From the NCBI GenBank assembly GCA_903907985.1, contig CAIVQG010000034.1, positions 1 through 61,246 on the forward strand: a stretch of DNA of 61,246 nt. The letters run 5' to 3'. The notes below the pieces were generated by a model. The model worked only from the letters and a program-made list of their open reading frames with translations, made no database searches and was not told where the DNA came from. The stretch comes from an uncultured delta proteobacterium. GTDB taxonomy: Bacteria; Desulfobacterota; Syntrophia; Syntrophales; Smithellaceae. Shown in pieces: positions 16,270 through 36,777 of this stretch; position 1 is the first letter of the stretch; each line of letters begins with the position of its first letter. The position numbers were made by a program, and so were the translations under genes.

Positions 16270-17460
16270 ATGGAGAAATCAAAGACCCCGCTCCTGGACG
16301 AATTGGAAAAGGGCAAGTGGCCCAGTTTCGTTACGGACATGAAGCAGGCGGCGCAAAAGAGTCCCATGGCCGAGGATCTCCTTAGCCAGTTGGAACTTTC
16401 TTACAAAGACAAAATTGGCCATTGGAAACATGGGGGCATTGTCGGCGTTAAGGGCTACGGAGGCGGAGTTATTGGCCGCTATTCAGACCGGCCCGACCTC
16501 TTCCCGAACGTTCAGGCCTTTCACACTATGCGAATCAACCATCCCACGGGGTGGTTCTACAAAACGGACGCTCTGCGCAACCTGTGCGATGTCTGGGATA
16601 AACACGGCAGCGGCCTGACCAACATGCACGGTTCCACAGGTGACGCCATCCTCCTGGGCACAACAACAGAACACATCCAGCCCTGCTTTGATGATCTTTC
16701 CGCAGCCGGATTTGATCTCGGCGGCTCCGGCTCGGCCCTCCGTACGCCCAGCGCCTGCGTTGGACCGGGACGTTGCGAGTGGGCCTGCATCGACAGCCTG
16801 GATGTCTGCTACAATCTCACCATGGAATTTCAGGATAAGATTCACCGCCCCATGTTCCCTTATAAATTCAAGATCAAGGTTTCCGCCTGCCCCAACGACT
16901 GTGTCGCCTCCATCGCCCGCTCTGATTTTTCCATCATCGGAACGTGGAAAGGGAAAATACTCATCAATCCGGCGGAAGTTACCGCCTATGCTTCTTCAGA
17001 CCTGGACATCCAGAAAGAGGTCTGTGACCTCTGCCCGACGAAGTGTATGGAATGGGATTCAAAAGAGCTGAAGATCCACGACGAGGACTGCACCCGTTGC
17101 ATGCACTGCATCAATCTGATGCCTAAAGCACTGCGGCCGGGAAAAGAAAAAGGCGCGACCATCCTGGTCGGCGGCAAAGCACCTATCGTGGAAGGGGCAC
17201 TTCTTTCCTGGGTTATTGTACCTTTTATTAAGCTGGAACCTCCTTACACGGAACTCAAAGAACTGATCGAACGAATCCAGGACTGGTGGGATGAAAACGC
17301 CAAGTCGCGGGAAAGACTCGGCGAACTGATCAAACGCTTAGGCATGAGGGTATTTCTGCGAGGCGTGGGCCTGCCTGCCGTTCCCCAGATGGTCAAGGCG
17401 CCGCGGAGCAATCCTTATGTCTTCTTCTGGCCCGAAGATATTAAACAGGAGGTGAAATAA
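16270..17460 (+). CDS. dsrA: Dissimilatory sulfite reductase alpha subunit
   Basis: Catalytic subunit of the siroheme enzyme that reduces sulfite, acting with DsrB and the substrate carrier DsrC. The 396 residues are of family length. Iron-sulfur/siroheme cysteines are C163 and C169 (ACVGPGRC) and C207 and C211 (CPNDC). An inserted ferredoxin domain has C252, C255, C259 and C274, C277, C280. GGAGGT precedes the ATG. It opens an operon running to dsrP. The presence of dsrD and absence of dsrEFH here point to the reductive type. Confidence 0.97.
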
Positions 17461-17461
17461 A

Positions 17462-18523
17462 ATGGCAAAAACAGATATTGGCCCCCCTGACTATAAAACC
17501 ATGCTGCCACCCGTCATTCAGAGAAACTACGGGAAATGGCTCTATCACGAAATCCTCAAACCGGGCGTGCTCATGCACGTTGCGGAATCGGGAGAAGCAC
17601 TCTATACCGTACGCGCCGGGTCACCGCGACTGGTTTCGACTGATCACATCCGGGAAATATGTGACATCGCCGAAAAATATTGCGACGGTTATCTGCGCTT
17701 TACGAGCCGTAACAATATTGAATTTCTTCTGGACGACAAGGACAAAGTCGAACCCCTGATTGCCGAACTGGCTTCCCGCAACTATCCTGTCGGCGGCACC
17801 GGACACTCCATATCCAACATCGTTCACACTCAGGGATGGGTCCACTGCCACACCCCTGCCACGGATGCCTCGGGACCAGTCAAGGCCCTCATGGATGAGA
17901 TCTATGATTATTTTATCACCTCAACCCTGCCGGCCCACGTCCGGATTGCCCTGGCCTGCTGCCTGAATATGTGCGGCGCCGTTCACTGCTCCGACATCGC
18001 CATTTTGGGAATTCACCGGACAGTTCCTAAACCCGACAACAGCCGTGTGCCGAATATGTGCGAAATACCTTCAACGGTCGCTTCCTGCCCCACTGGCGCC
18101 ATTCGCGGCGACATGAAAAACAAGACCGTCACGGTAAATGATGAAAAGTGCATGTACTGCGGAAATTGCTATACTGTTTGCCCGGCCATGCCCATTGCCG
18201 ATCCGGAAAACGACGGGATCTCCATCTGGGTCGGCGGCAAGGTATCCAATGCCCGGAGTGCGCCCAAGTTTTCCAAATTAGCGATACCCTTCCTTCCCAA
18301 CAATCCGCCGCGTTGGCCGGAGGTTGTAGATGCCGTAAAGAACATTATTGAGGTCTATGCAAGTCATGCCCGAAAGCATGAAAGGGTCGGCGAATGGATC
18401 GAGCGCGTCGGCTGGGAGAGGTTCTTCAGCCTGACCGGCATTCCCTTTACAGACAAGCATATCGACGACTTCGATATGGCAACGGAAACATTCCGGACAT
18501 CAACTCAGTTTAAATGGAGGTGA
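17462..18523 (+). CDS. dsrB: Dissimilatory sulfite reductase beta subunit
   Basis: Forms the alpha2beta2 enzyme with DsrA. The 353 residues include [16 protein letters not shown] near 123-138, the cluster region [14 protein letters not shown] near 165-178, and a ferredoxin domain [16 protein letters not shown] near 221-236. GGAGGTG precedes the ATG one base after dsrA. The last codons of dsrB carry the ribosome site of dsrD. Confidence 0.97.
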
Positions 18524-18525
18524 AT

Positions 18526-18765
18526 ATGAGTGAAGAACTGAAAAAGCGAATCACCGATTTATTCCATGAAAAGTCCAAAGGCGACAAAAAGATGTTCTAC
18601 ATCCGCGATGTCACCAAGTGGTTGCCGGATGAAGACCGGCATGCCATTCAGAATGCCGTAAAGGTGCTACTCGATGAAGAAGTGCTCGTATATTGGTCAA
18701 GCGGCAGTAGTTCGTACATAATGTTGCCCGAGTTTTTTCCCAAGGAAGAAGGAACCTGCTCTTAA
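18526..18765 (+). CDS. dsrD: DsrD, winged-helix activator of sulfite reductase
   Basis: A 79-residue protein of the DsrD family, which occurs almost only in sulfate/sulfite reducers and has been reported to stimulate DsrAB activity. The body KKMFYIRDVTKWLPDEDRH is family-typical. Start chosen at the second ATG because GGAGGTG lies four bases before it. Its presence marks the operon as a reductive system. Confidence 0.93.
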   Translation: MSEELKKRITDLFHEKSKGDKKMFYIRDVTKWLPDEDRHAIQNAVKVLLDEEVLVYWSSGSSSYIMLPEFFPKEEGTCS

Positions 18766-18778
18766 GAGGTAATGGATT

Positions 18779-20224
18779 ATGAACCGATCATGCCCGCGTC
18801 TGGTTGTAGCCGCCCTGCGGGGCGGGGCTGGAAAAACAACTCTGTCTGTGGCTATGGCTGTTGCCCTGCAAAAACGGGGCATTTCCGTCGTACCCTTCAA
18901 AAAGGGACCTGATTATATCGATGCGGCCTGGCTTACCCTGGCGGCATCGAAACCGTGTTGCAACCTGGATACTTTTTTGATGAGCCAAGAGCAGGTTGTC
19001 CGCTCTTTTTCACGCCATGCCACGGAAGGAACCGTTTCTCTCATTGAAGGCAACCGGGGACTCTTCGATGGGGTTAATGCCGAGGGGGAATTCAGCACAG
19101 CCCAACTCGCCAAACTCCTCAACGCTCCTGTTATTCTGGTTGTCGACTGCGACAAAGTTACACGTACAGCTGCTGCGATGGTCATGGGATGCCAAAGTCT
19201 GGATCCCGAAGTGGATATCCGGGGGGTCATCCTGAGCCGGGTAAACGGCAGCCGTCATGCGGCAGTCATCTGTCAGTCCATTGAGGAATCCTGCCATCTG
19301 CCCGTTTACGGTATAGTGCCACGGATGACGGATCTTCCCTTTACGGATCGGCACCTGGGATTGATTCCCCCTCAGGAACACGACCGCATTCAAAGGGCAT
19401 TAGACCGGGCAGGTGTTATAGCTGAAGATTATATGGACATTCCGGGATTGCTCCGGATTGCCGAAAGTGCATCACCCTGGGGAATCGATGCATTCCCTCA
19501 TCAGGCCATCCCCGGCAAAACCGGTGAAAAGCCTGTAAGGATTGGAGTGATCAAAGATGCTGCATTTCAGTTTTATTATTCCGAAAATATTGAGGCACTA
19601 ATCGATTGCGGGGCCCAGATAGTCCAGATAAGCGCCCTGGACGAAAAAATCCTGCCGGACGTAGATGCTTTATACATCGGCGGTGGTTTTCCCGAAACCC
19701 AGGCCAGACAACTCGTACAAAACGAATCTTTTCGCCGCTCCCTGCGAGCGGAAGCGGAAGCGGGGCTTCCGATCTATGCTGAATGTGGAGGATTCATATA
19801 CCTTGGCGAATCCCTGACTATCGGCGATGAACACTATCCGATGGTTGGCGCTTTGTCTGTCACCTTCGGAATGGAAAAACGACCGCAGGGACACGGGTAT
19901 ACTACACTGTCCGTGGATCGGGAAAATCCTTTTTTCCCCATCGGCACGAAGATCAGCGGCCATGAATTTCATTACTGCCGGATTCTCTCCCTGCAGGAGG
20001 AGGGAGGACATACAGCCTACCGGGTCCTCCGGGGGACAGGGATGGACGGCCACAGAGACGGTTTATGCCGGAAAAATATTCTCGCGGGATTCACGCACCT
20101 GCATGCCCTGGGAACTCCTCTGTGGGCCGAAGCCATGGTTTGCAAAGCCAAACAGTACCGTGCCGCGAGACAGAATGAAGTAGTTTATTCCCCTTTAAAA
20201 AAAGGAGATGCAGGAAGATTTTGA
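18779..20224 (+). CDS. dsrN: DsrN, cobyrinate a,c-diamide synthase-like siroheme amidase
   Basis: Family members amidate tetrapyrrole side chains with glutamine and ATP. In dsr loci the enzyme is thought to make siroheme amide for DsrAB. The 481 residues have the P-loop RGGAGKTTLS at about 14-23, an ATP-grasp-free CobB N-domain, and a class I glutamine amidotransferase end with the Cys of YAECGGFIYLGE near 341 and the His of SGHEFHYC near 400. It lies 13 bases after dsrD. A cobalamin role is possible, but the context favours siroheme. Confidence 0.92.
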   Translation: MNRSCPRLVVAALRGGAGKTTLSVAMAVALQKRGISVVPFKKGPDYIDAAWLTLAASKPCCNLDTFLMSQEQVVRSFSRHATEGTVSLIEGNRGLFDGVNAEGEFSTAQLAKLLNAPVILVVDCDKVTRTAAAMVMGCQSLDPEVDIRGVILSRVNGSRHAAVICQSIEESCHLPVYGIVPRMTDLPFTDRHLGLIPPQEHDRIQRALDRAGVIAEDYMDIPGLLRIAESASPWGIDAFPHQAIPGKTGEKPVRIGVIKDAAFQFYYSENIEALIDCGAQIVQISALDEKILPDVDALYIGGGFPETQARQLVQNESFRRSLRAEAEAGLPIYAECGGFIYLGESLTIGDEHYPMVGALSVTFGMEKRPQGHGYTTLSVDRENPFFPIGTKISGHEFHYCRILSLQEEGGHTAYRVLRGTGMDGHRDGLCRKNILAGFTHLHALGTPLWAEAMVCKAKQYRAARQNEVVYSPLKKGDAGRF

Positions 20225-20266
20225 AAAATAATTAATAAATATTTAATACAATAGGAGGTTTCTAAC

Positions 20267-20587
20267 ATGCCGCAAATAGAATTAGCAGGCAAAATTTACG
20301 AAGTGGATGAAGATGGGTTTCTGCAGGAGCTCGATAAATGGAATGAAGAGTTCGCCCAGGCCTACGCTCATACAGAAGACATTGAAGGTACTCTCACAGA
20401 TGAACACTGGAAACTTATCAATTATCTGAGGAATTACTTCCAGCAGTTCGGCATTGCTCCCATGGTCCGCAAAGTTTGCAAGGACAATGGGATAGACATG
20501 AAGAAGCTTTATGAACTCTTTCCCACAGGTCCGGCAAAAGGCGCCTGCAAGCTGGCAGGTTTGTCGAAACCGACAGGTTGCGTCTAA
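20267..20587 (+). CDS. dsrC: DsrC, sulfur-carrier protein of sulfite reduction
   Basis: DsrC carries the sulfur from DsrAB as a trisulfide between two cysteines, which is then reduced by DsrMKJOP. The 106 residues keep both: Cys94 in GACKLAGLS and the penultimate Cys105 in the flexible C-terminal arm. GGAGG precedes the ATG. Having dsrC within the operon, directly before two DsrMK-type gene pairs, is notable because dsrC is often encoded elsewhere. Confidence 0.96.
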   Translation: MPQIELAGKIYEVDEDGFLQELDKWNEEFAQAYAHTEDIEGTLTDEHWKLINYLRNYFQQFGIAPMVRKVCKDNGIDMKKLYELFPTGPAKGACKLAGLSKPTGCV

Positions 20588-20604
20588 GAAGAGGAAGCAT
20601 TCTA

Positions 20605-21549
20605 ATGGGATTCTATATTTTATCATATGTGTGCATTGCCGTGTTCATCGGGGCTACCGGTTGCCTGATTTACAGGCAAATCACCCTGCCCCTGCATGTC
20701 CGCTGGGAGATATATCCGGTCAGGCATGAAACAACAGCCCGGGTGGCCTATGGCGGCTCCTACATGGAAGAGGTGAACTGGTGGAACAATGAATATAAAA
20801 GTTCGCACATCAATGAGCTCAAATACATGGTACCGGAAATTCTATTCCTCAGAGGATTGTGGAAGGAAAACAGAAGCCTCTGGTTGGTCTCCTTCCCTTT
20901 TCATTTCGGCATGTATTTGATGATTGCCACCTTCGGGCTGCTATTGCTTCATGCCGTCATCACGCTAGGAGGATTTCCGGCTTTTACAGCAGGCAACGCT
21001 GACGAAGCCCTGCTTTCCGGCCTGATCGCCGCCACTGGATGGAGCGGCCTGATAATGGGAAATATCGGAAGTCTAGGAATTCTTTACAAACGTCTTACCG
21101 ATCGGGAAATGAGAATTTATTCTTCTTTTGCTGATTATTTCAATATCCTTTTTATCTTTATTTTTTTCCTTGCCGCTTTAATTACCTGTCTTCTTGGCGA
21201 TCCGCTTCTGGAAGGTGCAAAGGCTTACACATTTGGCCTGCTGACAGGTGGACATTCGCCGCATCCATACGTACCGGGTCAAACCGTCTTCGGGAGGACA
21301 ACCATCGTATTGGCATCGCTTCTCGTCGCCTATATTCCGCTCACACACATGTCCCACATGTATATGAAGTATTTCCTCTATCACAAGGTCAAATGGGATG
21401 ATGCCCCGAACCAGCGGGGCGGCAAGATCGAATCCGCCATCATGCGGAATCTGGATTTAAAACCGACATGGCAGGCCAAACATGTTGGAGCGGACGGACA
21501 AAAATCCTGGCATGACATTGCGACTTCGGCGCCCAAGGAGATGAAATGA
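20605..21549 (+). CDS. DsrM-like membrane cytochrome b subunit (first pair)
   Basis: A 314-residue protein of the NarI/DsrM type with about five helices, probably binding haem b and handling menaquinol. Histidines suited as ligands are in FPFHFGMYLMI near 103 and PLTHMSHMYMKYF near 260. The N-terminus has only one helix and a long loop (residues 30-85), unlike DsrM at 23190. Start at ATG 20605 with AAGAGGAAG upstream. It overlaps the next gene by four bases, so the two make one complex, resembling DsrMK2 or Tmc/Hme-type modules. Confidence 0.8.
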   Translation: MGFYILSYVCIAVFIGATGCLIYRQITLPLHVRWEIYPVRHETTARVAYGGSYMEEVNWWNNEYKSSHINELKYMVPEILFLRGLWKENRSLWLVSFPFHFGMYLMIATFGLLLLHAVITLGGFPAFTAGNADEALLSGLIAATGWSGLIMGNIGSLGILYKRLTDREMRIYSSFADYFNILFIFIFFLAALITCLLGDPLLEGAKAYTFGLLTGGHSPHPYVPGQTVFGRTTIVLASLLVAYIPLTHMSHMYMKYFLYHKVKWDDAPNQRGGKIESAIMRNLDLKPTWQAKHVGADGQKSWHDIATSAPKEMK

Positions 21550-23159
21550 AAAAATCTCTGAAACCGTCAGACATCGCTAAACCGTCGGACTGCTTATGTC
21601 ACATTGAGCAAGGTGAGCTCTCGCCACTTCCTCCTCCCTATGAGGATTTTAATCAGGCAACCATTACCGTCCTGAAACCGGAAAAAATCAAGAACATTGA
21701 ATCCTCCCTAGATGACACGGTGGCCATAGGCATCCCCAAGCCCGCAAGTCCGGAAGAAGAGGAAAAGCTGGTTAGCCAGTTTCTCTCGGGGCTGAAAAAA
21801 CTTTTCGAGAGGGATAATAACTGGACTTTTTTACAGCCCCTGATGCTTTCCATGGAACACTGCGCCAAATGCCAGACTTGTTCCGCTGCTTGTCCTATCT
21901 ATGAGACGAGTGGCCGGAAGGAAATTTACCGGCCAATCTTTCGGTCAGAGGTATTGCGTCGGATTTACAAGAAATATCTCAAACCGGGCGGAAGAATCAC
22001 CGCCAAGTTGACCGGAGACATCGATCTGAACTGGACAACCATTGCCCGTCTGGCCGAATTATCCTATCGCTGCACTCTTTGCCGACGCTGTGCCACGGTT
22101 TGCCCGATCGGAGTGGATAACGGACTCATCAATCACGAAATTCGCAAGCTCTTCTCCCAGGAAATGGGCATCGCCCCCAAAGAGATCCACGAAAAGGGTT
22201 CCCTCCAGCATCTCCGCGTCGGCTCTACCACCGGCATGAACTCCCTGGCGGCAAAAGACAGCGCCGAGTTCATCCAGGAGGAGATGGAAGAGATTACGGG
22301 CTATAAAGTCGAAATCCCCTGGGATGTCGAAGGCGCGGACATTCTACTGCTCCACAATGCAGGGGAAATGCTGGCCTGGCCGGAAAATGTCGGAGCTTTT
22401 GCCATCATTTTTCAGGCGGCTGGAATTTCGTGGACGCTTTCTTCAGAGGCAGCCGGTTACGACGCTGTCAACTACGGTCTTTGGTATGACGATGTTCAAT
22501 TTTCGCGTGTTGCCGTTAAACATGCCGATATCGCCCGGAGACTGAAGGTCAAGAAGATCGTCATCGGCGAATGCGGACATGCGCATAAAGCGCTGACGGT
22601 CATTGCCGACCGTCTGTTAACGGGAGATCTTAATATCCCGCGCGAATCGGCAATGGTCACGTTGGAGAATATTGTCCTCGGCGGGAAATTGCAGTTTGAT
22701 CCCAGTAAAAACAATTTCCCCGTAACCCTGCATGATCCCTGCAATATCGTAAGGTCTATGGGAATCGTTGAGCCCCAGCGGCGTATCCTCCGGAAGATCG
22801 CTCCGCGATTCCGGGAAATGACGCCTCATGGGGTGGAAAACTACTGTTGCGGCGGTGGTTCCGGGTTCGCCATCATGTCGGGATATAATTTTGGGCAGTG
22901 GCGCAATCTGGTCAGTTCTCGCCGGAAGTTCCTGCAGATTCTAAATGCCTTTCATGATGAACCGCAGGATATTCCAAAATATGTCTGTGCACCCTGCTCT
23001 AACTGTAAAGGATCTATCCGGGACATAACAGACTATTACCACGCAGAAGAACGCAGCGGTCTGCATTACGGCGGACTGGTGGAATTGATCATCAATGCGC
23101 TGGCAGGCATGAAAAAACCAATGATCCGCTTCGGCGAAAAACCATCATGGGAACCATGA
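21546..23159 (+). CDS. DsrK-like iron-sulfur subunit with CCG domains (first pair)
   Basis: A 537-residue HdrD-type protein. Two 4Fe-4S motifs are CAKCQTCSAACPIYE near 110 and CTLCRRCATVCPIGV near 178. Two CCG-like regions follow, the second reading NYCCGGGSGF near 435, which ligates the special catalytic cluster that reduces disulfides or trisulfides. It is a paralogue of DsrK (24182-25786), with which it shares the FHDSCNPAR-like block. Role proposed: a second quinol:DsrC or thiol oxidoreductase. Confidence 0.82.
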   Translation: MKKSLKPSDIAKPSDCLCHIEQGELSPLPPPYEDFNQATITVLKPEKIKNIESSLDDTVAIGIPKPASPEEEEKLVSQFLSGLKKLFERDNNWTFLQPLMLSMEHCAKCQTCSAACPIYETSGRKEIYRPIFRSEVLRRIYKKYLKPGGRITAKLTGDIDLNWTTIARLAELSYRCTLCRRCATVCPIGVDNGLINHEIRKLFSQEMGIAPKEIHEKGSLQHLRVGSTTGMNSLAAKDSAEFIQEEMEEITGYKVEIPWDVEGADILLLHNAGEMLAWPENVGAFAIIFQAAGISWTLSSEAAGYDAVNYGLWYDDVQFSRVAVKHADIARRLKVKKIVIGECGHAHKALTVIADRLLTGDLNIPRESAMVTLENIVLGGKLQFDPSKNNFPVTLHDPCNIVRSMGIVEPQRRILRKIAPRFREMTPHGVENYCCGGGSGFAIMSGYNFGQWRNLVSSRRKFLQILNAFHDEPQDIPKYVCAPCSNCKGSIRDITDYYHAEERSGLHYGGLVELIINALAGMKKPMIRFGEKPSWEP

Positions 23160-23189
23160 TCAGCAAATAAGGAAGGTCCAGCATCCATT

Positions 23190-24179
23190 ATGAACCTTTT
23201 AATATCAATCGTCGCTATCTTGATCCTGACCCTGCTGGCACTGGGGATAGCTTTAAGTCAGAACATGGCCTATCTTCTGACCGTTATTCTGCCTTATGTT
23301 GCCTTTGCAGCTTTTCTGGCCGGGTTTGTTTACCGCGTTATAAAATGGGGCGCCTCCCCCGTTCCTTTCCGCATTCCCACCACGTGCGGCCAGGGAAAAT
23401 CACTACCCTGGATCCAGACCAATCCGCTGGAAAATCCATCAGGATGTTGGGGCGTAATCGGAAGAATGGCCCAGGAGATATTCCTGTTTCGGTCTCTTTT
23501 TCGCAATACGGACGTGGCGATTATTGAAGGGCGGCCCGTCTACGGCAGCGCCAAATGGCTCTGGTTTTTCGGTATTTTGTTCCACTGGTCGTTCTTGATT
23601 ATCGTGCTGCGCCACCTGCGTTTTTTCATTGAACCGATAGCCTCCTGGATCGGCGTTCTTTCTGCGTTGGACGGCTTCTTCGAGATCGGCATCCCGACCC
23701 TATATCTGAGTGATGCCACACTTCTCGCCGGGCTCACGTTCCTCTTCCTGCGCCGGGTGGTTGTCCCGCAGGTGCGTTACATTTCCTTGTTTACGGATTA
23801 TTTTTCTCTGCTGCTGATCGCCGGCGTGATAAGCACAGGCCTCCTGCTGAGACACTTTTTCCCCACCGATCTCAACGCAGTGAAAACTCTCGCCCTGGGG
23901 TGGATCACCTTTTCGCCTGTTATCCCCCATAAGGTCAGCGCCTTTTTTTACATTCACCTGTGCTTCGTTTTTACTCTATTGGCCTGGTTTCCCTTAAGCA
24001 AACTCATGCATGCCGGAGGAATATTTCTGAGCCCGACCCGCAACATGACCAACAACAGCCGCAGACAGCGGCATATCAATCCCTGGAATGCGCCGGTTAA
24101 AGTCCATACCTACGAGGAATACGAGGATGAGTTCCGGGATAAAATGAAAGCGTCGGGATTACCCGTGGAAAAGGAGTAG
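23190..24179 (+). CDS. dsrM: DsrM, membrane cytochrome b of the sulfite reduction complex
   Basis: The quinone-facing haem b subunit of DsrMKJOP. The 329 residues begin with two helices, then QTNPLENPSGCWGVIGRMAQEIFLFRSLFRNT and HWSFLIIVLRHLRFF, typical of DsrM. A third conserved stretch is FYIHLCFVFTLLAWFPLSKLMHAGGIFLSPTRN near 250-285. It lies 30 bases after the first DsrK-like gene and two bases before dsrK. Confidence 0.93.
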   Translation: MNLLISIVAILILTLLALGIALSQNMAYLLTVILPYVAFAAFLAGFVYRVIKWGASPVPFRIPTTCGQGKSLPWIQTNPLENPSGCWGVIGRMAQEIFLFRSLFRNTDVAIIEGRPVYGSAKWLWFFGILFHWSFLIIVLRHLRFFIEPIASWIGVLSALDGFFEIGIPTLYLSDATLLAGLTFLFLRRVVVPQVRYISLFTDYFSLLLIAGVISTGLLLRHFFPTDLNAVKTLALGWITFSPVIPHKVSAFFYIHLCFVFTLLAWFPLSKLMHAGGIFLSPTRNMTNNSRRQRHINPWNAPVKVHTYEEYEDEFRDKMKASGLPVEKE

Positions 24180-24181
24180 CC

Positions 24182-27141: not shown

Positions 27142-27148
27142 GGACATT

Positions 27149-28645: not shown

Positions 28646-28672
28646 ACCATCGCCATAAAGAAGATTTTTTTC

Positions 28673-28700
28673 TTGACATATTTTAAAAATTGAGTACCAT
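28673..28700 (+). promoter_or_regulatory. Candidate sigma-70 promoter of ackA-xsc cluster
   Basis: TTGACA, 16 bases and TACCAT. The start would be near 28707, about 60 bases before ackA. Confidence 0.5.
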
Positions 28701-28751
28701 TCAATAAAAATGATGTATTCCATGCAGGACTTATTTAAAAGGCCTTAAGCT

Positions 28752-28767
28752 TGAAAAGTAGTTTAAA
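28752..28767 (+). promoter_or_regulatory. 16-mer shared with dsrA leader
   Basis: TGAAAAGTAGTTTAAA is identical to 16241-16256. Here it is followed at once by T and the ackA ATG, so the AAGGAGG ribosome site present after the dsrA copy is missing. Confidence 0.6.
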
Positions 28768-28768
28768 T

Positions 28769-29968
28769 ATGAAGATATTGGTCCTGAATTGCGGCAGTTC
28801 ATCTCTCAAATACAAACTATTTGAGATGACGGGAAATGACGTCCTGGCCCACGGGCAGGCAGACCGTATCGGCATGCCCAACGCACTATTTCAGCATGAT
28901 GCGCAGGGACAAGAAACTTTTCTGAACGAAACGCCTCTTTCGAGTCATCATGAAGCAGTGCACTCCCTGTTGACCCATCTTGTCGACAGCAAGCAGGGCA
29001 TTCTGAAGGACTTGAACGAAATCGGCGGTGTCGGACACCGGGTGGTCCACGGGGGAGAACATTTTCAAACCTCCGTTGTCGTCGATCCCGGAACTAGAAA
29101 TATCCTCGAGAACACCAAACAACTCGCGCCACTCCACAACCCTCCCAACCTGATGGGGATCGATGTCTGCACAAATCTTTTGCCTGGTGTTCCTCAGGTG
29201 GCAGTCTTTGACACTGCTTTCCACCAGACCATGCCCGCATACGCCTACACCTACGCAATTCCCTACCGCTATTATCTGGAAGACCATGTCCGCAGATACG
29301 GCTTTCACGGCATTTCTCACCGGTATGTAGCTCATAGGACGGCGGAAATACTGCGGCAGAAACTAGAGGACTTGAAAATCATTACCTGTCATCTCGGAGC
29401 GGGATCCAGTCTATGCGCCGTCGCCGGGGGCAAATCGCAAGATACTTCTATGGGTTTTACGCCACTCTCGGGACTCGTCATGGGCACGCGCTCGGGCGAT
29501 ATTGATCCGGCACTTGTTTCTTTCCTAGCGGAGAAGGAAAACTGTTCTTTAGGGCAGGTTATGGAAATTCTCAATCGGCAGAGTGGCGTTTTCGGTATCT
29601 CCGGCATATCGCCCGATTTTCGTGATTTGGAAAAGGAAGCTGCCCTCGGCAATAAGCGGGCCCTTCTGGCTCTTGATGCCTATGCCTACAGTGTGGCCAG
29701 TGGAATTGGTTCCCTGATTCCGGCTGCCGGCGGTCTTGATGTTCTTGTCTTTACCGCGGGAATCGGCGAACACTCGCCAAATATGCGGCGGCGGATCTGT
29801 GCATTTCTTTCCTGGCTGGGCATTATTCTGGATGAAGAGAAAAATGTGAACAGTACGGTCGAAGGTATCATCTCAAGGAAGGAGGCGACAGTCAAAGTCC
29901 TCGTCGTTCCAACAGATGAAGAAAAAATGATCGCCCGGGAGACACGGGCGATTTTGCAAAAACAATAA
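28769..29968 (+). CDS. ackA: Acetate kinase
   Basis: Transfers phosphate from acetyl phosphate to ADP, giving acetate and ATP. The 399 residues start MKILVLNCGSSSLKYKLFEM, with VVHGGEHF near 88, the HxTAFHQTMP-type block FDTAFHQTMP near 150, RRYGFHGISHRYV near 176 and FTAGIGEHSP near 330. The ATG at 28769 matches the family N-terminus. A TTG at 28751, behind AAAAGG, may instead be used and adds six residues. Being next to xsc, whose product is acetyl phosphate, makes it the energy-conserving step. Confidence 0.95.
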   Translation: MKILVLNCGSSSLKYKLFEMTGNDVLAHGQADRIGMPNALFQHDAQGQETFLNETPLSSHHEAVHSLLTHLVDSKQGILKDLNEIGGVGHRVVHGGEHFQTSVVVDPGTRNILENTKQLAPLHNPPNLMGIDVCTNLLPGVPQVAVFDTAFHQTMPAYAYTYAIPYRYYLEDHVRRYGFHGISHRYVAHRTAEILRQKLEDLKIITCHLGAGSSLCAVAGGKSQDTSMGFTPLSGLVMGTRSGDIDPALVSFLAEKENCSLGQVMEILNRQSGVFGISGISPDFRDLEKEAALGNKRALLALDAYAYSVASGIGSLIPAAGGLDVLVFTAGIGEHSPNMRRRICAFLSWLGIILDEEKNVNSTVEGIISRKEATVKVLVVPTDEEKMIARETRAILQKQ

Positions 29969-29973
29969 CAGGT

Positions 29974-29993
29974 GTTCCTTCGGAGAAGGAGCT
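29974..29993 (+). terminator. Weak hairpin between ackA and xsc
   Basis: TCCTTC and GAAGGA pair around GGA and are followed by GCTTTTGCTAAT. It is too weak to be a sure terminator and may set the ratio of ackA to downstream message. Confidence 0.3.
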
Positions 29994-30038
29994 TTTGCTA
30001 ATAAAACAATTAAAAGTTAAATACACTGGAGGTTTAAA

Positions 30039-31799
30039 ATGAAAAAAACAAAAATGACGCCCAGCGAGGCAATCGTCGAAACCCTGCTTGCGGAGGGTGT
30101 CGATCATGTTTGCGGCATTGTCGGTTCCGCTTTTATGGATATGCTCGATCTATTCCCGGCTGCAGGAATCAAATTTCTCCCCGTTCGTCATGAACAAAGC
30201 GCGGCCCATATGGAAGACGCCTATTGCCGGATAACAGGCCGGGCTGGCGTAGTAGTGGGCCAGAACGGGCCGGGCATCACGAACATGGTCACTTCCGTGG
30301 CTGCGGCTAATATGGGTCATACACCGATGGTGATCATCTCTCCTTCGGCCGGGACGCCCACCATCGGCTGGGACGGCTTCCAGGAGTGCGATCAGATGTC
30401 CGTCTTTAAGTCCGTTACGAAGGCCGTTGTTCGCGTTCCCCATCCCAAGAGGGCTGCCGATTGCCTGAGAACGGCCTTCCGCATCGCTTATGCCGACCGG
30501 GGCCCCGTCCTGTATGACATTCCGCGGGACTATTTCTACGGCGAACTGGAAGAGACCATCCTAAAACCGTCTCAATACCGTGTGGACGCACGGGGCTGCG
30601 GTTCGATGGAGCAGCTGGACCGCGCTGCCGAACTTCTGGCCAAAGCCAAAAATCCCGTTATCGTTTCCGGACGGGGCGTGGTTGATGCCGATGCTCTCGA
30701 AATCGTTAAAGCCATCGCCGAACACCTGACAGCCCCCGTGGCAGTTACCTATCTCCACAATGACGCGTTTTACGGGAATCATCCCCTGTCAGTGGGTCCC
30801 ATCGGTTATATGGGATCCAAGGCGGCCATGAAAACCATGGCCAAAGCCGATGTCATGCTCGCCATCGGGACAAGGCTCTCCGTCTTCGGAACCCTGCCCC
30901 AATACGACATCAACTACTTCCCGGATAATGCCAAGATCATTCAGATCGACATTAACCCGAAACACATTGCCCGGACCCACCCCATCGAGGTTGGAATCAT
31001 CGGCGACGCGAAGGAAGCCACAGTCGAAATCCTGAAGCGCCTAAAGGCAGCAGACGGTAAACGCAAACCTGATACCAAACGCCTGGAAGCTGTGGCCAAA
31101 GAAAAGAAGAAATGGGAAAAGGAAATTGTCGATTTAGCCATGGTCAAGGGCAACCCCATGAACCCCCGCCGGGCGCTTCTGGAAATTTCCAAGGCTCTGC
31201 CGGATGATGCCATTGTCACCACCGATATCGGCAACGTTGCCTCAACAGCTAACAGCTACCTCAAGTTCAACCATTCGCGGCAGCATATCGCCGCGCTCAC
31301 CTTCGGCAATACTGGCTTTGCTTATCCGGCCGCCCTCGGGGCACAGATCGCCCGTCCCAAAACACCGGTTATTGCCATAATTGGTGACGGCGCCTGGGGC
31401 ATGAGCCTCCACGAAGTCAGCACTGCCGTCGAACACAACCTGCCTGTCGTGGCCTGCGTCTTCCGAAACATGTGGTGGGGAGCCGAGGCGAAGAACCAAG
31501 TGGATTTCTATAACAACCGTTTCGTAGGTGTAGATATCCCGACGCCGGAGAGCTTTGTCCCTGTAGCCAAAGCCATGGGCGCCAACGGCTTCCAGGTAAG
31601 TCGGCCCGAAGATATCAAGGAAGCATTTAATGCCTGTATTAAGAGCCGGAAGCCAACCGTACTCGAATTTCTGGTCGACGGCAAGCAGTTGGCTCCGCCG
31701 TTCCGGAAAGATGCATTGGCTCTGCCGACTCGCTTTTTGCCCAAGTATGCCCACCTGGATCATCACAACTGGTACAAAGGAGGCATCGATGATTTATAA
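30039..31799 (+). CDS. xsc: Sulfoacetaldehyde acetyltransferase
   Basis: A TPP enzyme that converts sulfoacetaldehyde and phosphate into acetyl phosphate and sulfite. The 586 residues match Xsc length. Motifs I recall from characterised Xsc proteins are present: IVGSAFMDM near 28, catalytic Glu52 in [16 protein letters not shown] near 74, GWDGFQE near 110, [11 protein letters not shown] near 230, [26 protein letters not shown] near 265-283, the TPP block [11 protein letters not shown] near 448, [23 protein letters not shown] near 475, and APPFRKDA near the end. These separate it from acetolactate synthase. GGAGGTTTAAA precedes the ATG. Confidence 0.9.
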
Positions 31800-32628
31800 A
31801 GATTTAAAAGGAAAAACAGCCATTGTCACCGGGTCCGGCAAAAAAACTGGCATCGGTTATGCGATTGCGGAAAAACTGGCTGCCTGCGGCTGCAATATCA
31901 TTATTGCCGATCTGGGGAAGACGCCCACACCGGGAGAATCCCTAAAGTCGGCAACAGGCGAAGAAATGGACACCATTGCCGCCGAATTGGCCAAGACCTA
32001 TAACGTCAGGACACTGGCCGTGGCCGTCGATATTACCGACACCGATGCTATCGGCGCCATGGTGGAAAACATTAAAGGAACCTTCGACCACATTGACATT
32101 CTTTGCAACAATGCAGGGGCATCCTTCGGCGTCCCGAACACGGTTTTAGGTTATGACGAAGCGGCCTGGATGAAGACCATCGATGTGAATCTGTTTTCCG
32201 TCTTTCGCATTTCGCGGGCCATCATTCCTCTGATGGCGGGCAAACCGGCGGCGATTATAAACACGGCTTCGCGGGCCGGCAAGGTCCCTCCGATCTTCAA
32301 CAGTGCCTATGCTGTGGCCAAGGCTGGTGTTATCATGTTGACCAAAACCATGGCCAAGGAACTGGGCGGCGGTGGAATCCGGGTTAATGCCATCTGCCCG
32401 GGACAGGTTGCCACGGATCTAGAAAAGTGGCGTTTTGGCCTGGAAGCGTCGTTTTTCGGCACGACGATTGAGGAGCGGGAAAAGGAAATGTGCACAACCA
32501 TTCCTCTGGGATACATCGGTTTACCGCGGGACGCCGCCGATCTGGTAGCCTTTCTGGCTTCCGAGTCGTCAAGATATATAACAGGACAGGCCATCAATCT
32601 CGATGGCGGTCAGTGCATGGAACTATAA
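31789..32628 (+). CDS. Short-chain dehydrogenase/reductase
   Basis: A 279-residue classical SDR. The cofactor motif is [14 protein letters not shown] near 16-29, followed by NNAGASFG near 107, catalytic Ser of NTASRAG near 160, and YAVAK near 176 (Tyr and Lys). It overlaps xsc by 11 bases and has AAGGAGG upstream, so it is made together with Xsc. Likely roles are oxidation of a hydroxysulfonate (isethionate, dihydroxypropanesulfonate or sulfolactate) towards sulfoacetaldehyde or sulfopyruvate, or the reverse. The substrate cannot be read from sequence. Confidence 0.85.
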
Positions 32629-32660
32629 CGAAACAACCCATTATTTCAGGAGGAAAGTTC

Positions 32661-34358
32661 ATGAATAAAATTATTGGCGGCCAGCTGGCCGCAGAAGCGC
32701 TCCTCGAGCGGGACATAGATTATATTTTTACCCTCAGCGGCGGACATATTACCCCTATCTACCAATTTCTGGAGAATACCAGAATCACTCTTTTCGATAC
32801 CCGCCATGAACAAGCGGCGGTCTTTATGGCCGAGGCCTGGGCGAAGATGACCCGTAAGCCCGCCGTAGCCATGGTGACTGCGGGCCCGGGCTTCACCAAT
32901 GCCCTGTCCGGCATCGCCAGTGCCAGACTGTCCAACACGCCGGTGATCCTCATTTCCGGCTGTGTGGGACTGGAGAGTGTCGATAAACTGGATCTTCAGG
33001 ACATGACCCAGCTTCCCGTAATTTTACCCATGGTCAAAAAGGCCTTAGTCTGCCAGGTTGCCCAGAGGATCCCCGAATATATCGATATGGCCTTCCGGGA
33101 GGCTATGAGCGGCAGGCCCGGTCCCGTTTACCTGGAGCTTCCAGTCGATCTGCTCAACGCAACAATCGATCCGTCCAAAGTCAAGAAGATGCACACAAAG
33201 ATTACATCCAAGCCCGTGGACCTGGAAAATACTCAAAGAGTCTTTGAACTCCTCAAGGCGGCGAAAAATCCCGTCGTCATCGCCGGCAACGGTGCCTGGT
33301 ATGACGATGCCGGAATAGAACTCATTAAGTTTGTTGAAAATACGGGTATCCCGGCCTTTACGGCGGGTACGGCACGGGGCATTATTCCTGACACTCATCC
33401 CCTCTGTTTCGAATCATCTATGGCGATACGCCCGGGTGGTAGCATGATGGCCTTTTTCAGCACCGATCTGGTTCTTTTCCTCGGCGACAGTTTGAGTCTC
33501 TTCTACATGTTTGGAGAAATATTCCCTTCAAGCGCCAAGTTCATTCAGGTGGACATCGAGCAAAACGAGATCGGACGGAACCGCACCGTCGATCTGGGTA
33601 TCGTCAGCGACATCAAGTCTTTTCTTGCTGAATTGAATGGCATCATTAAGCAGAAGGCCATCGGCGCCACCCTCCGTAAGCAATTCGAGCCCTGGGTAGA
33701 AATCGTCCGGAATGCGGAAAAGGACGGCAAGGAACAGGCCAAATCACAGTGGGAATCCAGCGCACTGCCCATTCATCCGATGCGGCTGGCAAAGGAAGTC
33801 AATGATTTCATGAATCAGCAAGACGATATCGTTGTCGCCGACGGCGGAGATACAACCACCTGGATGGGCATGACAAGGACGGTCATCAAGGGCGGAACCT
33901 ATATGGATTACGGCCTGTATGGATGCCTTGCCGTCGGCATTCCCTATGCCAACGCCGCCAAGTTGAAAAATCCGGACAAACGCGTGCTGCTCATCACAGG
34001 CGACGGATCGACGGGCTTCAACTTTATGGAATTTAATACCGCCATCCGCAAAAAACTGCCTATCGTTGTCGTTATTGCCAACGACCAGTCCTGGGGCATG
34101 ATTATGCATAGTCAGACGTTGCGTCTGGGACACAATATACCTAATGGAACGGAACTGGGTTGGGTCGATTACCACAAGATGGTGGAAGCTCTGGGAGGTT
34201 TTGGAATCTGCGTGGAGAAACCCGAGGATATCCGACCGGCTCTAGAGGCGGCTTTTGCTTCCGGAAAGACGGCGTGTATAAATGTCAAAGTCGATCACAC
34301 GATAATCAGCCCGGGCAGCGTGGCCCTGGCGAATATCGGGGGATACAAGGCCAGTTAA
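32661..34358 (+). CDS. Second TPP-dependent enzyme, acetolactate synthase-like, substrate unknown
   Basis: A 565-residue, three-domain TPP enzyme. Catalytic Glu50 is in TRHEQAAVF, TAGPGFTN follows near 70, and the TPP/Mg motif is GDGSTGFNFMEF...AND near 447-480. It is a distant paralogue of the Xsc in the same operon but lacks the Xsc motifs (WGAE.RN, PFR.DA). It resembles the uncharacterised acetolactate-synthase/2-hydroxyacyl-CoA-lyase-like group. By context it could decarboxylate sulfopyruvate to sulfoacetaldehyde, the step usually done by the small ComDE pair, or cleave a ketol sulfonate. GGAGGAAAG precedes the ATG. Confidence 0.85.
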   Translation: MNKIIGGQLAAEALLERDIDYIFTLSGGHITPIYQFLENTRITLFDTRHEQAAVFMAEAWAKMTRKPAVAMVTAGPGFTNALSGIASARLSNTPVILISGCVGLESVDKLDLQDMTQLPVILPMVKKALVCQVAQRIPEYIDMAFREAMSGRPGPVYLELPVDLLNATIDPSKVKKMHTKITSKPVDLENTQRVFELLKAAKNPVVIAGNGAWYDDAGIELIKFVENTGIPAFTAGTARGIIPDTHPLCFESSMAIRPGGSMMAFFSTDLVLFLGDSLSLFYMFGEIFPSSAKFIQVDIEQNEIGRNRTVDLGIVSDIKSFLAELNGIIKQKAIGATLRKQFEPWVEIVRNAEKDGKEQAKSQWESSALPIHPMRLAKEVNDFMNQQDDIVVADGGDTTTWMGMTRTVIKGGTYMDYGLYGCLAVGIPYANAAKLKNPDKRVLLITGDGSTGFNFMEFNTAIRKKLPIVVVIANDQSWGMIMHSQTLRLGHNIPNGTELGWVDYHKMVEALGGFGICVEKPEDIRPALEAAFASGKTACINVKVDHTIISPGSVALANIGGYKAS

Positions 34359-34429
34359 GCTGCCCACATGCCATACGCGTTTAGAAGTGCAGGATGGCTT
34401 GAACTTACTTTTTAAAACAAGGAGGTCCC

Positions 34430-35725
34430 ATGAATAACGTGACTGCACCCAAAGAATACAAGCTCTCCGCACGCAGTTCCTATTATATCTTCACGCTGCT
34501 GTTTTTGCTGTATTTCTTCGATTACGTAGATCGGACAATCGTGACCTCCCTTGCTCCGTTTATTCAAAAAGAGTGGGGCCTCACGGACACGCAGTCCGGC
34601 CTGCTCATGTCGGTTGTCTACTGGTCCATTGTTTTCTTTGTCTTTCCCGTTTCGATCCTCGTGGACCGTTGGAGCCGGAAAAAGACAATCGGCGTCATGG
34701 CCCTTCTCTGGACCGCCGCGACGGTAGCCTGCGCTTTCACTAAAACCTTTCCCCAGTTGCTGGTGACCCGCTCCGCCATCGGCATTGGCGAGGCCGGATA
34801 TGCCCCCGCCGGCACGGCCATGCTCTCCGGTTTATTTCCTCCGGAAAAACGTTCCCGCATGATGGGCCTCTGGAATATCTCTATTCCCCTTGGTATTGCC
34901 GTCGGGATTGGTCTTGGCGGTTTCATCGCCACACATTGGGGCTGGCGGCATGCCTTCGGTTTGGTGGCGATTCCCGGGGCAATCGTGGCCGTCCTTTTTT
35001 TCTTTGTCAAGGATTATAAAACGGTGGAACTGGTCAAAACCGATACGGGCAACACCGGTCAAAACCAGGTCAAGATGAGTAAGATGGATATCTTCCGGGA
35101 ATTTATTCATACCCCTTCTCTGATTTTTACCAATCTCGGGTTTGTCGGTTGCGTCTTTGCCAACAATGCGGTCATCTTTTGGCTTCCATCTTATTTACAC
35201 CGTACGACAGGTGTCTCTATCAGTGAGGCAGGCATGAAAACGAGTGTGCTTATGATCCTAGCACTCATCGGCCTACCTCTGGGAGGATGGCTGGCCGATT
35301 TGTGGTTTAAGAAACGGGTGACAGCAAGGCTGCTGTTTCCCGCAATTACAACAGCATTGAATGCCATCTTCATCTTTACCGCTATTTCCTTCCTTCAGGG
35401 ACAGGCACAATATCTAACGCTTATTGGAATGGGCATTCTGGCTTCCGCATTTGCCCCGGCGGCCATCACCGCCACGCAAGAGGTCATTCACCCTGGTCTG
35501 CGGGCCATTTCCTACTCCGTCTGCGTTATCGTTCAAAATCTCTTAGGAGCATCCCTGGCGCCAATTGTGATCGGTAAGATATCCGACCTCTATGGCATTC
35601 AGGTGGCCATGTCCATACTCCCCGTTTTCCTTTTGGCCTCGGCCCTGATGTTTTTTGCCGGATCTTTTTTTTACAAGAAGGATCTGGATAATGTGGAAAA
35701 GATCATATTGGAATGTGAAAACTAG
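34430..35725 (+). CDS. MFS transporter, candidate sulfonate importer
   Basis: A 431-residue major facilitator protein with twelve helices. Family motifs are LYFFDYVDRTIV near 27, the loop VDRWSRKK near 77 and GIGEAGYAPAGTAMLSGLFPPEKRSRMMG near 118-145. It resembles Spinster/ACS-type carriers of organic anions. Its place inside the xsc cluster, 71 bases after the TPP gene and 29 before the dehydrogenase, suggests uptake of the sulfonate substrate. An MFS importer (HpsU) is known in some dihydroxypropanesulfonate degraders (memory). Confidence 0.82.
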   Translation: MNNVTAPKEYKLSARSSYYIFTLLFLLYFFDYVDRTIVTSLAPFIQKEWGLTDTQSGLLMSVVYWSIVFFVFPVSILVDRWSRKKTIGVMALLWTAATVACAFTKTFPQLLVTRSAIGIGEAGYAPAGTAMLSGLFPPEKRSRMMGLWNISIPLGIAVGIGLGGFIATHWGWRHAFGLVAIPGAIVAVLFFFVKDYKTVELVKTDTGNTGQNQVKMSKMDIFREFIHTPSLIFTNLGFVGCVFANNAVIFWLPSYLHRTTGVSISEAGMKTSVLMILALIGLPLGGWLADLWFKKRVTARLLFPAITTALNAIFIFTAISFLQGQAQYLTLIGMGILASAFAPAAITATQEVIHPGLRAISYSVCVIVQNLLGASLAPIVIGKISDLYGIQVAMSILPVFLLASALMFFAGSFFYKKDLDNVEKIILECEN

Positions 35726-35754
35726 CAAAAAAAGGAAATAGAAAGAAGGTTAAT

Positions 35755-36777
35755 ATGAAAGCCGTTGTATTTCGTAAAGACAAGGGACTCGTCTACGAGG
35801 ATGTTCCTGATTACAGGCTGGCGCAAGATGAGGTATTGGTCAAGGTGGCCAATACCGGCTTTTGTGGTTCCGACCATTCTTTAGTGTCCGGAGGTCTCCT
35901 GCCGGAGGGCTATATTCTGGGTCATGAAATCAGCGCCGTTGTTGTTGAAAAAGGAGCCAATGCTTCCGGCCCGGCTGTGGGGACGAGGGTTTGCATTCGT
36001 CCCACTTACTGCGGACATTGCGCCAATTGCCTTTCCGGCAAACAGCATCTCTGCCGGGTTCAAAGGCGAACTGCGGGGATCGGCGACTTGCCCGGCGGCT
36101 TTGCCGAATACGTCAAAGTCTATCCCCAGATGCTGATTCCCATTCCCGCAGGCGTTGATTCCCGCAACGCCGCTCTGGCGGAGACATTTGCTTCCGCCTT
36201 GCATGCGATTCATTGCACACGCAACCATACAGGGTCCGCTCTGGTGATGGGCGGCGGTCCCATCGGCCTTGCGGCCGTCCGAATCCTCAAGATTCTCGGC
36301 TATGGTCCCATTGTCCTCTTCGAACCGGTAAAAGCCAAGCGGGAAATCGCCTTTCTTTACGGTGCCGACCATGCCTTCGATCCGCGGGAAAAAGAGGTCG
36401 ACCAGCAAGTATTAGCCCTAGTTCCAGGAGGGTTTCAAAAGACATTCGAATGTTCCGGCGTTAAGGCCAATATTGACCGCGCGATCCAGCTGGCGGCAGA
36501 CGATGGGGATGTTTGTATCGTGAGCATGATTTTCACACCTCTGGAGATCTCCGCGCCTTTCCTCCTAAATTTGAAAGAAATCCGTCTGACGGCATCCATA
36601 TCCAATACACATCAGGAGAATATACAGTGCCTGAACTGGATGGCAGAAGGGAAACTGGACGCCCGACCGCTCATATCCGATACCGAACCTCTAGAGCGAC
36701 TGCCCGCCGTTTATCTAGAGAGAATCGACACCGGCCTTGCAGTGAAAGTACTGCTGCGGATCGGAGAAGAATTCTAA
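35755..36777 (+). CDS. Zinc-type alcohol dehydrogenase (MDR family)
   Basis: A 340-residue medium-chain dehydrogenase. Catalytic zinc ligands appear in GFCGSDHS near 36 and GHEISAVV near 57. The structural zinc loop has CGHCANCLSGKQHLC near 87-101, and the Rossmann motif is VMGGGPIGLAAVRIL near 165. AGAAGGT precedes the ATG. Together with the SDR it gives the operon two different alcohol dehydrogenases, reminiscent of the HpsO/HpsP pair that handles the enantiomers of dihydroxypropanesulfonate; this likeness is contextual only. Confidence 0.85.
   Translation: MKAVVFRKDKGLVYEDVPDYRLAQDEVLVKVANTGFCGSDHSLVSGGLLPEGYILGHEISAVVVEKGANASGPAVGTRVCIRPTYCGHCANCLSGKQHLCRVQRRTAGIGDLPGGFAEYVKVYPQMLIPIPAGVDSRNAALAETFASALHAIHCTRNHTGSALVMGGGPIGLAAVRILKILGYGPIVLFEPVKAKREIAFLYGADHAFDPREKEVDQQVLALVPGGFQKTFECSGVKANIDRAIQLAADDGDVCIVSMIFTPLEISAPFLLNLKEIRLTASISNTHQENIQCLNWMAEGKLDARPLISDTEPLERLPAVYLERIDTGLAVKVLLRIGEEF

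Follow-up and report, generated by a model that had tools for sequence, protein, structure and literature searches.

A candidate organosulfonate respiration locus joining dsr, ackA and xsc in a Smithella-like bacterium

Introduction

Taurinivorans muris degrades taurine through Tpa, Ald and Xsc, gains ATP from AckA and respires the sulfite with Dsr, according to PMC10507020, which also cites Desulfonispora for anaerobic use of Xsc. Since Xsc, AckA and Dsr are known together from this bacterium, the kind of metabolism considered here is not new. We describe a locus in which dsr, ackA and xsc genes lie side by side, on contig CAIVQG010000034.1 of an uncultured Smithellaceae (Syntrophales) bacterium (GenBank assembly GCA_903907985.1); the whole stretch analysed, positions 1 to 61,246, is termed the window. 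Judged from sequence comparisons, the best explanation of the whole is that the locus probably serves organosulfonate respiration, as one module, in a Smithella-like host without sulfate-activation genes.

DsrABD was noted in a Smithella metagenome-assembled genome (MAG), G21, in 2018, with no sulfonate link in the portion of the paper available (PMC5946492), and a review of 2023 treats the Syntrophales as uncultured dsrAB lineage 6 (PMC10591310); the term 'xsc' does not occur in its main text, as available. Prior description of the one-locus linkage, or of a thiamine diphosphate (ThDP)-dependent route for 2,3-dihydroxypropanesulfonate (DHPS), was not found in the open-access literature, a weak negative. 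Two features look new: the linkage of dsr, ackA and xsc in one locus, in genomes of Syntrophales and of Syntrophomonadaceae type (with no ackA on the stretches examined for the second type), and a cassette of genes for a short-chain dehydrogenase/reductase (SDR), a second ThDP enzyme (here TPP2), a major facilitator superfamily (MFS) transporter and a zinc-dependent alcohol dehydrogenase (Zn-ADH).

The dsr-ackA-xsc locus

A first-pass annotation, made from the letters of the window alone, had reported dsrABDNC, two DsrMK-type pairs and dsrJOP, followed in the same direction by ackA and xsc. Searches of the window proteins with NCBIfam and Pfam profiles recovered every one of these genes, co-directional on the + strand at 16270-31799, with the first DsrMK-type pair divergent and below the family cut-offs. 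The features are as follows.

16270-17460, +: dsrA (TIGR02064, 573 bits, cut-off 393)
17462-18523, +: dsrB (TIGR02066, 534 bits, cut-off 342)
18514-18765, +: dsrD (PF08679, 55.5 bits, cut-off 24.2)
18779-20224, +: dsrN, a CobB-family a,c-diamide synthase (TIGR00379, 445 bits)
20267-20587, +: dsrC (TIGR03342, 112 bits, cut-off 53.5)
20578-21549, +: divergent DsrM-like membrane subunit (NF038037, 21.6 bits, below the cut-off of 300)
21546-23159, +: divergent DsrK-like Fe-S subunit (NF045796, 334 bits, below the cut-off of 400)
23190-24179, +: dsrM of the second pair (NF038037, 473 bits, cut-off 300)
24182-25786, +: dsrK of the second pair (NF045796, 736 bits, cut-off 400)
25925-26350, +: dsrJ (NF038038, 162 bits, cut-off 100; three CxxCH motifs)
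26308-27141, +: dsrO (NF045797, 283 bits, cut-off 200)
27149-28339, +: dsrP (NF045798, 490 bits, cut-off 350)
28751-29968, +: ackA, acetate/propionate kinase family (TIGR00016, 476 bits, cut-off 293)
30039-31799, +: xsc, sulfoacetaldehyde acetyltransferase (TIGR03457, 854 bits, cut-off 676; tree)

By profile scores and motifs the Dsr core is complete in the window: dsrAB, a dsrC whose product carries two C-terminal cysteines (positions 94 and 105 of 106 residues) and DsrMKJOP. The gene dsrD is a marker of reductive-type Dsr. The first DsrMK-like pair (20578-23159) is divergent but real, and homologues of its DsrM-like subunit stand at the same place in relatives with 24-71% identity.

The window protein is a genuine Xsc by family score and clade, with activity on sulfoacetaldehyde predicted. 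The phylogeny that the first-pass annotation had proposed, against characterized Xsc and acetolactate synthase (ALS), was built from 93 distinct Xsc sequences thinned to 61 (32 from Bacillales were omitted), the window protein, and TPP2 and ALS rows. Xsc rows separate from TPP2 and ALS with support of 100/99, both outgroup branches being very long, and the window protein sits inside a clade of 24 rows (100/99). This clade adjoins a Peptococcaceae/Desulfovirgula pair (98/92), and a lateral gain from Firmicutes is therefore suggested. Two relatives have damaged xsc genes, in two pieces at L055 (G007) and with a stop near the 5′ end at L054 (G008), which could be loss in progress or assembly error. 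In the Bacillaceae loci L120 and L122 xsc is followed directly by another ThDP enzyme, 29-30% identical to Xsc and distinct from TPP2.

Recurrence of the linkage

The linkage, called unusual at first pass, recurs in a neighbourhood search of the kind suggested there, although at close range it is rare in the phylum (counts are given below). Fetched stretches carry dsr genes in 17 of the 80 named Xsc loci, a lower bound, as several loci end at contig ends (e.g. L058, L069, L070). Thirteen are among the 19 loci of the window's Xsc clade (L056-L073, L078) and four are of Syntrophomonadaceae type (L101, L104, L117, L124); L117 is counted on dsrM/K-like genes alone, and L112 and L116, with a DsrA match of only 25%, are not counted as dsr.

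Several Syntrophales genomes carry the whole block dsr-ackA-xsc-SDR-TPP2-MFS-ADH-TetR, with single members absent in some relatives (no match to the MFS gene in G018, none to ackA in G007), and G377, from another family, has dsrAB-N-C-MK-MKJOP-ackA-xsc in the order of the window. L101 runs MFS, 3-hydroxyacyl-CoA dehydrogenase (3HCDH)-like dehydrogenase, ThDP enzyme (39-40% identical to TPP2), xsc, SDR, dsrMK, dsrAB, dsrMK, and by size and similarity L104 matches it gene for gene. Since it recurs in relatives, the dsr-ackA-xsc arrangement is not a product of chance.

Rearranged blocks show which parts stay together. The cassette moves as a unit, because in G026 and G030 SDR-TPP2-MFS-(ADH)-TetR precedes dsrA and xsc comes last in the block (G030 has no ADH match near the cassette). 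G001, of the window's genus, has dsr-ackA-SDR-TPP2-MFS-ADH-TetR with no xsc between ackA and SDR; its xsc, 92% identical, is on another contig (L051, G001:C35, about 8.0-9.8 kb). The cassette therefore belongs with dsr even after xsc has moved. Along with a class-III aminotransferase and a DAO/GCV_T oxidoreductase, that xsc stretch encodes two amidohydrolases, and in this Smithella-like genome it resembles a route for taurine or N-substituted taurine; aminotransferase genes are found close to an xsc of the window's type in G001, in G377 and at the Peptococcaceae locus L075.

Co-occurrence extends beyond physical linkage. Among 40 relatives, dsrA is over cut-off in 14 and Xsc in 12, with dsrA in 9 of the 12 xsc genomes and in 5 of the 28 others (p = 0.001, kinship ignored). 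Among 395 genomes of the phylum, dsrA is present in 28 of 31 xsc genomes (30 of them over cut-off for Xsc) against 160 of 364 others (one-sided p = 3e-7, kinship uncorrected). Three loci of one genus, L042, L045 and L048 (G005, G017, G020), show ackA-xsc-SDR-TPP2 in genomes without dsrA by profile search; at L045 xsc stands at the contig start and no ackA is seen, and at L042 two HGD-D-family proteins lie just upstream of ackA.

The SDR-TPP2-MFS-ADH-TetR cassette

The span given at first pass, 16270-36777, does end at the stop codon of the Zn-ADH gene, but the four genes that fill 31789-36777 had been passed over. They and the regulator that travels with them are listed here.

31789-32628, +: SDR dehydrogenase (PF13561, 183 bits; 30% identical to Cupriavidus HpsO, E 5e-21)
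32661-34358, +: TPP2, second ThDP enzyme, benzaldehyde-lyase/formolase-like (three ThDP Pfam domains; matches in the PDB by sequence and by fold; the searches used the in-frame reading 32655-34355)
34430-35725, +: MFS transporter, galactonate-transporter-like (TIGR00893, 181 bits, below the cut-off of 395; PF07690)
35755-36777, +: Zn-ADH (PF08240 and PF00107; 35% identical to Cupriavidus HpsP over 193 residues)
37135-37764, +: TetR regulator (PF00440), beside the cassette in relatives

The xsc and SDR genes overlap by 11 bp, and the gaps after SDR are 32 bp to the TPP2 ATG (26 for the longer reading), then 71 and 29 bp. A scan for promoter-like sites (19 against 17.1 expected, sd 4.2) and terminator-like sites (31 against 23.8, sd 5.0) was uninformative.

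Whole or partial, the cassette recurs in other families of the phylum, with MFS or SBF as transporter and Zn-ADH or a PRK06181-kind SDR as second dehydrogenase. TPP2 scores above 800 bits in 20 of the 395 phylum genomes, and Xsc is found in 13 of these 20 against 18 of the other 375 (one-sided p = 1.6e-11). In G114, G416, G074 and G170 about 4 kb at most separates the two genes, and the identity of their Xsc to the window protein is only some 50%; TPP2 thus also partners a second type of Xsc. In G304 and G396 TPP2 stands beside dsr M/K/J/O/P genes. A plasmid search returned 18 records for TPP2 (31-36% identity among the 15 listed) and 2 for the SDR (37%); for the ADH it returned none at 1e-40 and 474 at 1e-20 (34% or less among the 25 listed).

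Related arrangements were seen elsewhere. At L157 (659-6282) of G036, a Syntrophales genome with no Xsc by search, the genes that come after TPP2 (75%) are for a protein of the URO-D family, a TauE/SafE exporter and an aldehyde:ferredoxin oxidoreductase; perhaps sulfonate is here exported and not cleaved, and the gene context fits aldehyde products. In the Firmicutes MAGs of L112, L116, L127 and L125, the last two titled as of animal gut or faecal origin, xsc adjoins a gene for a ThDP enzyme and a 3HCDH-like dehydrogenase follows, annotated in L112 and L127 and present only as a like-sized open reading frame in L116 and L125. The weak DsrA-like protein (25%) of L112 and L116 is possibly AsrC.

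TPP2

By sequence the closest solved relatives of TPP2 are benzaldehyde lyase (BAL, 267 bits) and an engineered formolase (266), followed in the PDB by 2-hydroxyacyl-CoA lyases (HACL, 255-240; entries named OXC at 240 bits are HACL by title), oxalyl-CoA decarboxylase (OXC, 215) and ALS (188). The predicted structure (mean pLDDT 81) likewise puts BAL/formolase on top (Z 39.9), then OXC (38.8) and HACL (38.6), a fold comparison that barely separates the three (within about 1.5 Z). Residues G29-G30-H31, E52 and Q115 are invariant in 14 sequences; E52 we take to be the cofactor-activating Glu, and H31 and Q115 align, respectively, with the presumably catalytic H29 and with Q113 of BAL.

At two diagnostic positions, pyruvate decarboxylase (PDC)-type 2-oxoacid decarboxylases have Glu and His according to Table 1 of PMC13327070, which source gives Ile/Gln for human HACL2, CEAS, pyruvate oxidase and glyoxylate carboligase. 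Aligned with that table, TPP2 has Ile and Gln, a pattern that leans away from a PDC-type decarboxylase and is not proof of lyase chemistry. A Variovorax homologue lies with an SDR and an alcohol dehydrogenase and with no sulfonate gene visible, a setting that by analogy would fit oxidation of a diol to a hydroxycarbonyl compound ahead of C-C cleavage. In a TPP2 tree (50 of 55 rows kept after removal of near-duplicates) the Syntrophomonadaceae-type ThDP enzyme of L101 and L104 falls in another clade than the window protein, in a Desulfobacterota/Firmicutes split that leans on long branches.

Host genome

The host assembly (G000) has 3.41 Mb in 83 contigs, with completeness 100 and contamination 4.52. 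The closest named Xsc loci (L056-L073, 83-94% identity) come from MAGs labelled Smithella, Smithellaceae, Syntrophaceae or Deltaproteobacteria; these are lineages of known syntrophs.

The absence of sat and apr genes, reported at first pass for the window, holds for the whole assembly, which has no sat match and a best AprA score of 25.5 bits (cut-off 642). Sulfate reduction by the host is rejected on these grounds, and Xsc-derived sulfite is therefore the likely substrate of Dsr. Only one of the 40 relatives has sat, and only one has aprA over cut-off; both hits are in G034, which is not the window genome.

Other known routes of sulfonate use were sought in the same assembly. No taurine:pyruvate aminotransferase (Tpa) is recognizable, in a search without a Tpa-specific model; the four class-III aminotransferases read as ArgD, BioA, HemL and a HemL/GntE-like protein below all cut-offs, and taurine use via Tpa is thus unsupported for this genome. 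No match was found to the pyruvate formate-lyase (PFL)-like glycyl-radical enzymes (PF02901), which matched in 3 of 14 control genomes, and the glycyl-radical sulfonate lyase route (IslA, HpsG) is rejected for the host. HpsN was not found, the sole PF00815 protein of the genome (570 bits) being read as HisD, and ComE (TIGR03846) is over cut-off in none of 31 genomes including the host, whose best match is 39 bits (cut-off 221.5).

Proposed pathway and alternatives

In the pathway that we propose, the MFS transporter would import a sulfonate, SDR and/or Zn-ADH would oxidise it, and TPP2 would cleave the oxidised sulfonate to sulfoacetaldehyde. Xsc would convert sulfoacetaldehyde and phosphate to acetyl phosphate and sulfite, AckA would turn acetyl phosphate into ATP and acetate, and DsrAB/DsrC with DsrMKJOP would reduce sulfite to sulfide. 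The reactions of Xsc, AckA and Dsr are established for their families; the joint working of the genes, the cassette as the source of sulfoacetaldehyde and the choice of substrate we infer. A sulfonate-respiring module had already been suggested at first pass; a true Xsc, the recurring linkage and the lack of sat and apr support this, and what it had overlooked is the cassette with its TetR gene and the want of a recognizable Tpa.

DHPS is the most likely substrate, as read from the genes. In Cupriavidus, HpsO, HpsU and HpsP are encoded around hpsN, in an hpsNOUP-suyAB pathway for DHPS (PMC11382572, PMC11131964). We favour DHPS because the cassette has these Hps families in this order, because HpsN, ComE, Tpa and PFL-like enzymes were not found, and because the redox balance is exact: DHPS yields acetic acid, CO2, H2S and H2O, whereas sulfolactate needs two further H2. 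Strict orthology to HpsO and HpsP is unproven, the best evidence being common families and gene order.

More tentatively, and as a reading less likely than not, we suggest an undescribed anaerobic DHPS route in which SDR and Zn-ADH (or, in relatives, a second SDR) would oxidise DHPS of either configuration, giving sulfolactaldehyde or the corresponding keto isomer. TPP2, as a formolase-like lyase acting in the cleavage direction, would then split the product into sulfoacetaldehyde and a one-carbon unit at the level of formaldehyde or formate.

Several observations weigh against the module and this choice of substrate. The 411-bp gap between dsrP and ackA means that dsr and ackA-xsc may be separate transcripts, and the MAG has the 4.52% contamination given above, though relatives carry the same block. 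Of the 28 phylum genomes that have dsrA as well as xsc, only 3 (G000, G004, G377) show the two on the same contig at a distance of 20 kb or less; in this count contig ends interrupt G011 (L044, L149), and the dsrA position of G417 is unlisted. Xsc genes occur without dsrA in G005, G017, G020 and G008 (the disrupted gene), and dsrA without xsc in G012, G033, G034 and G038. Six of the 20 TPP2 genomes (G036, G265, G120, G079, G070, G303) have no Xsc at E <= 1e-180, and in G007 Xsc is split in two; the tie between cassette and Xsc is thus not a strict one. The MFS protein is 22% identical to HpsU in global alignment, with no blastp match; Gln147 of HpsO, the glutamine that in the account of PMC11131964 recognizes R-DHPS, is replaced by Ala in the window SDR.

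The main rival to DHPS cleavage, a serious possibility that stops short of being probable, is decarboxylation of sulfopyruvate. Sulfolactate, or DHPS via sulfolactate, would be the substrate, the dehydrogenases would make 3-sulfopyruvate, and TPP2 would be a single-chain enzyme that decarboxylates sulfopyruvate and has no kinship with ComDE. PMC12330013 names ComDE alongside Xsc in its listing of DHPS routes, and a Leisingera plasmid cluster runs hisD-SDR-ADH-universal stress protein-comD-comE; as ComE is nowhere over cut-off in the genomes searched, another decarboxylase would be required. The 3HCDH-like enzyme of L101 and L112, both annotated Firmicutes xsc loci, and of L127 could also oxidise a beta-hydroxysulfonate. 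The Ile/Gln pattern of TPP2, in place of Glu/His, speaks against decarboxylation, weakly, as benzoylformate decarboxylase also departs from the rule; so do its nearest solved relatives, which are aldehyde lyases and not 2-oxoacid decarboxylases, and for sulfolactate itself the two further H2 would have to be found.

Taurine or isethionate is an unlikely substrate. Sulfoacetaldehyde would then come from a taurine-oxidising enzyme, or from isethionate via Zn-ADH or SDR; Xsc handles C2 sulfonates, alcohol dehydrogenases are present in the window, and the G001 xsc stretch has its class-III aminotransferase. Yet Tpa is not recognizable in the host genome (taurine dehydrogenase was not searched for), and TPP2, a recurrent partner in the cassette, would be incidental and left without a role.

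It is still less likely that dsr and xsc are mere neighbours, Dsr serving external sulfite or other sulfur species, Xsc supplying carbon or sulfur, and TPP2, SDR and ADH acting on an unrelated, non-sulfonated diol or hydroxyketone. The Variovorax homologue, with SDR and Zn-ADH and no visible sulfonate gene, would suit this account, as would the TPP2 genomes without Xsc, the several xsc genomes without dsrA and the distance between dsrA and xsc in most phylum genomes that have both. It sits badly with a linkage found in two phyla under differing gene orders, the strong co-occurrence, the xsc/SDR overlap and the YeiH-like sulfite-exporter homologue upstream.

Least probable, and quite improbable in our judgement, is a TPP2 that acts as an HACL and splits sulfolactyl-CoA into sulfoacetaldehyde and formyl-CoA: HACLs are among the nearest solved structures, Ile/Gln is the pattern of human HACL2 and a Streptomyces homologue lies beside a formyl-CoA transferase and CoA ligases, but the window cassette has no CoA ligase or transferase gene (a weak negative, with the rest of the genome unsearched and the non-matching neighbours in relatives mostly unannotated) and the AMP-binding enzyme at 59888-61186 is more than 20 kb off on the other strand.

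Neighbouring genes

Two genes upstream of dsrA may belong with the organosulfonate respiration module.

13684-14787, -: YeiH-like putative sulfite/sulfate exporter (PF03601, 247 bits)
14928-15833, +: LysR-type regulator (PF03466/PF00126), YeiE-like by position only

In Salmonella, YeiE and YeiH are reportedly linked to sulfite resistance (PMC12880088). By analogy, the window pair may handle escaping sulfite, its membership of the module being likewise conjectural, and the neighbourhood is consistent with sulfite as an intermediate. Homologues of both genes occur near dsr in L049 and L145 (YeiH-like 79-82%, upstream of dsr). LysR homologues of 74-81% identity are near dsrA in L037, L049 and L145, without the exporter in L037; in all three the LysR gene points away from dsrA, and in the window it is co-directional. 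Weaker YeiH homologues (26-38%) were found on 21 Bacillales xsc stretches.

On the other side, kdp potassium-transport genes adjoin the cassette on the opposite strand (37834-46012, -). The same region encodes a KdpD-like protein fused to a PTS IIA-like domain and a PhoR/PnpS-like histidine kinase.

Comparison with known systems

The locus offers a testable source of sulfite for the dsrAB genes of Syntrophales, namely its intracellular release from a sulfonate. In that case, syntrophs that live with methanogen partners could switch to sulfide-producing respiration without sulfate when given DHPS from sulfoquinovose or similar sulfonates, and surveys that equate dsrAB with sulfate reduction would be misled. 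On the proposed DHPS route, syntrophs of at least two phyla that do not reduce sulfate would have in DHPS a complete, redox-balanced substrate, with acetate, CO2 and sulfide as products. The TPP2 cassette accompanies xsc in several Desulfobacterota families (the phylum being assigned by named relatives); it would add a new entry reaction for sulfonates, and it presents enzymologists with four defined proteins to assay.

TPP2 resembles BAL and formolase as its top solved matches by sequence, near the top by fold, and in the aligned His and Gln; it differs in its identity of about 32%, in having Ile where BAL has Thr481 and in its sulfonate gene context. With the Hps pathway of Cupriavidus, including the strain HN-2 cluster, the cassette shares an SDR of PF13561, an MFS transporter and a Zn-ADH of PF08240/PF00107 in the same order, but it lacks a second HisD-like protein as a candidate for HpsN, has a ThDP enzyme, and is only 22-35% identical. 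The Syntrophomonadaceae-type loci L101 and L104 likewise hold xsc, a related ThDP enzyme, dehydrogenases, an MFS transporter and dsr in one locus, but their genes are ordered differently, a dehydrogenase is of another family and the ThDP enzyme belongs to another clade.

The first-pass annotation had set the locus apart from sulfite-respiring gut bacteria on the ground that these use IslA instead, a contrast outdated by T. muris, which has Xsc and Dsr (PMC10507020). As in that bacterium, Xsc would yield sulfite and acetyl phosphate, AckA would yield ATP, and DsrAB with DsrC would respire the sulfite. Unlike T. muris, the host of the window is a Syntrophales MAG with no recognizable Tpa, its dsr, ackA and xsc genes form one locus, and entry of the sulfonate would be through the SDR-TPP2-MFS-ADH cassette.

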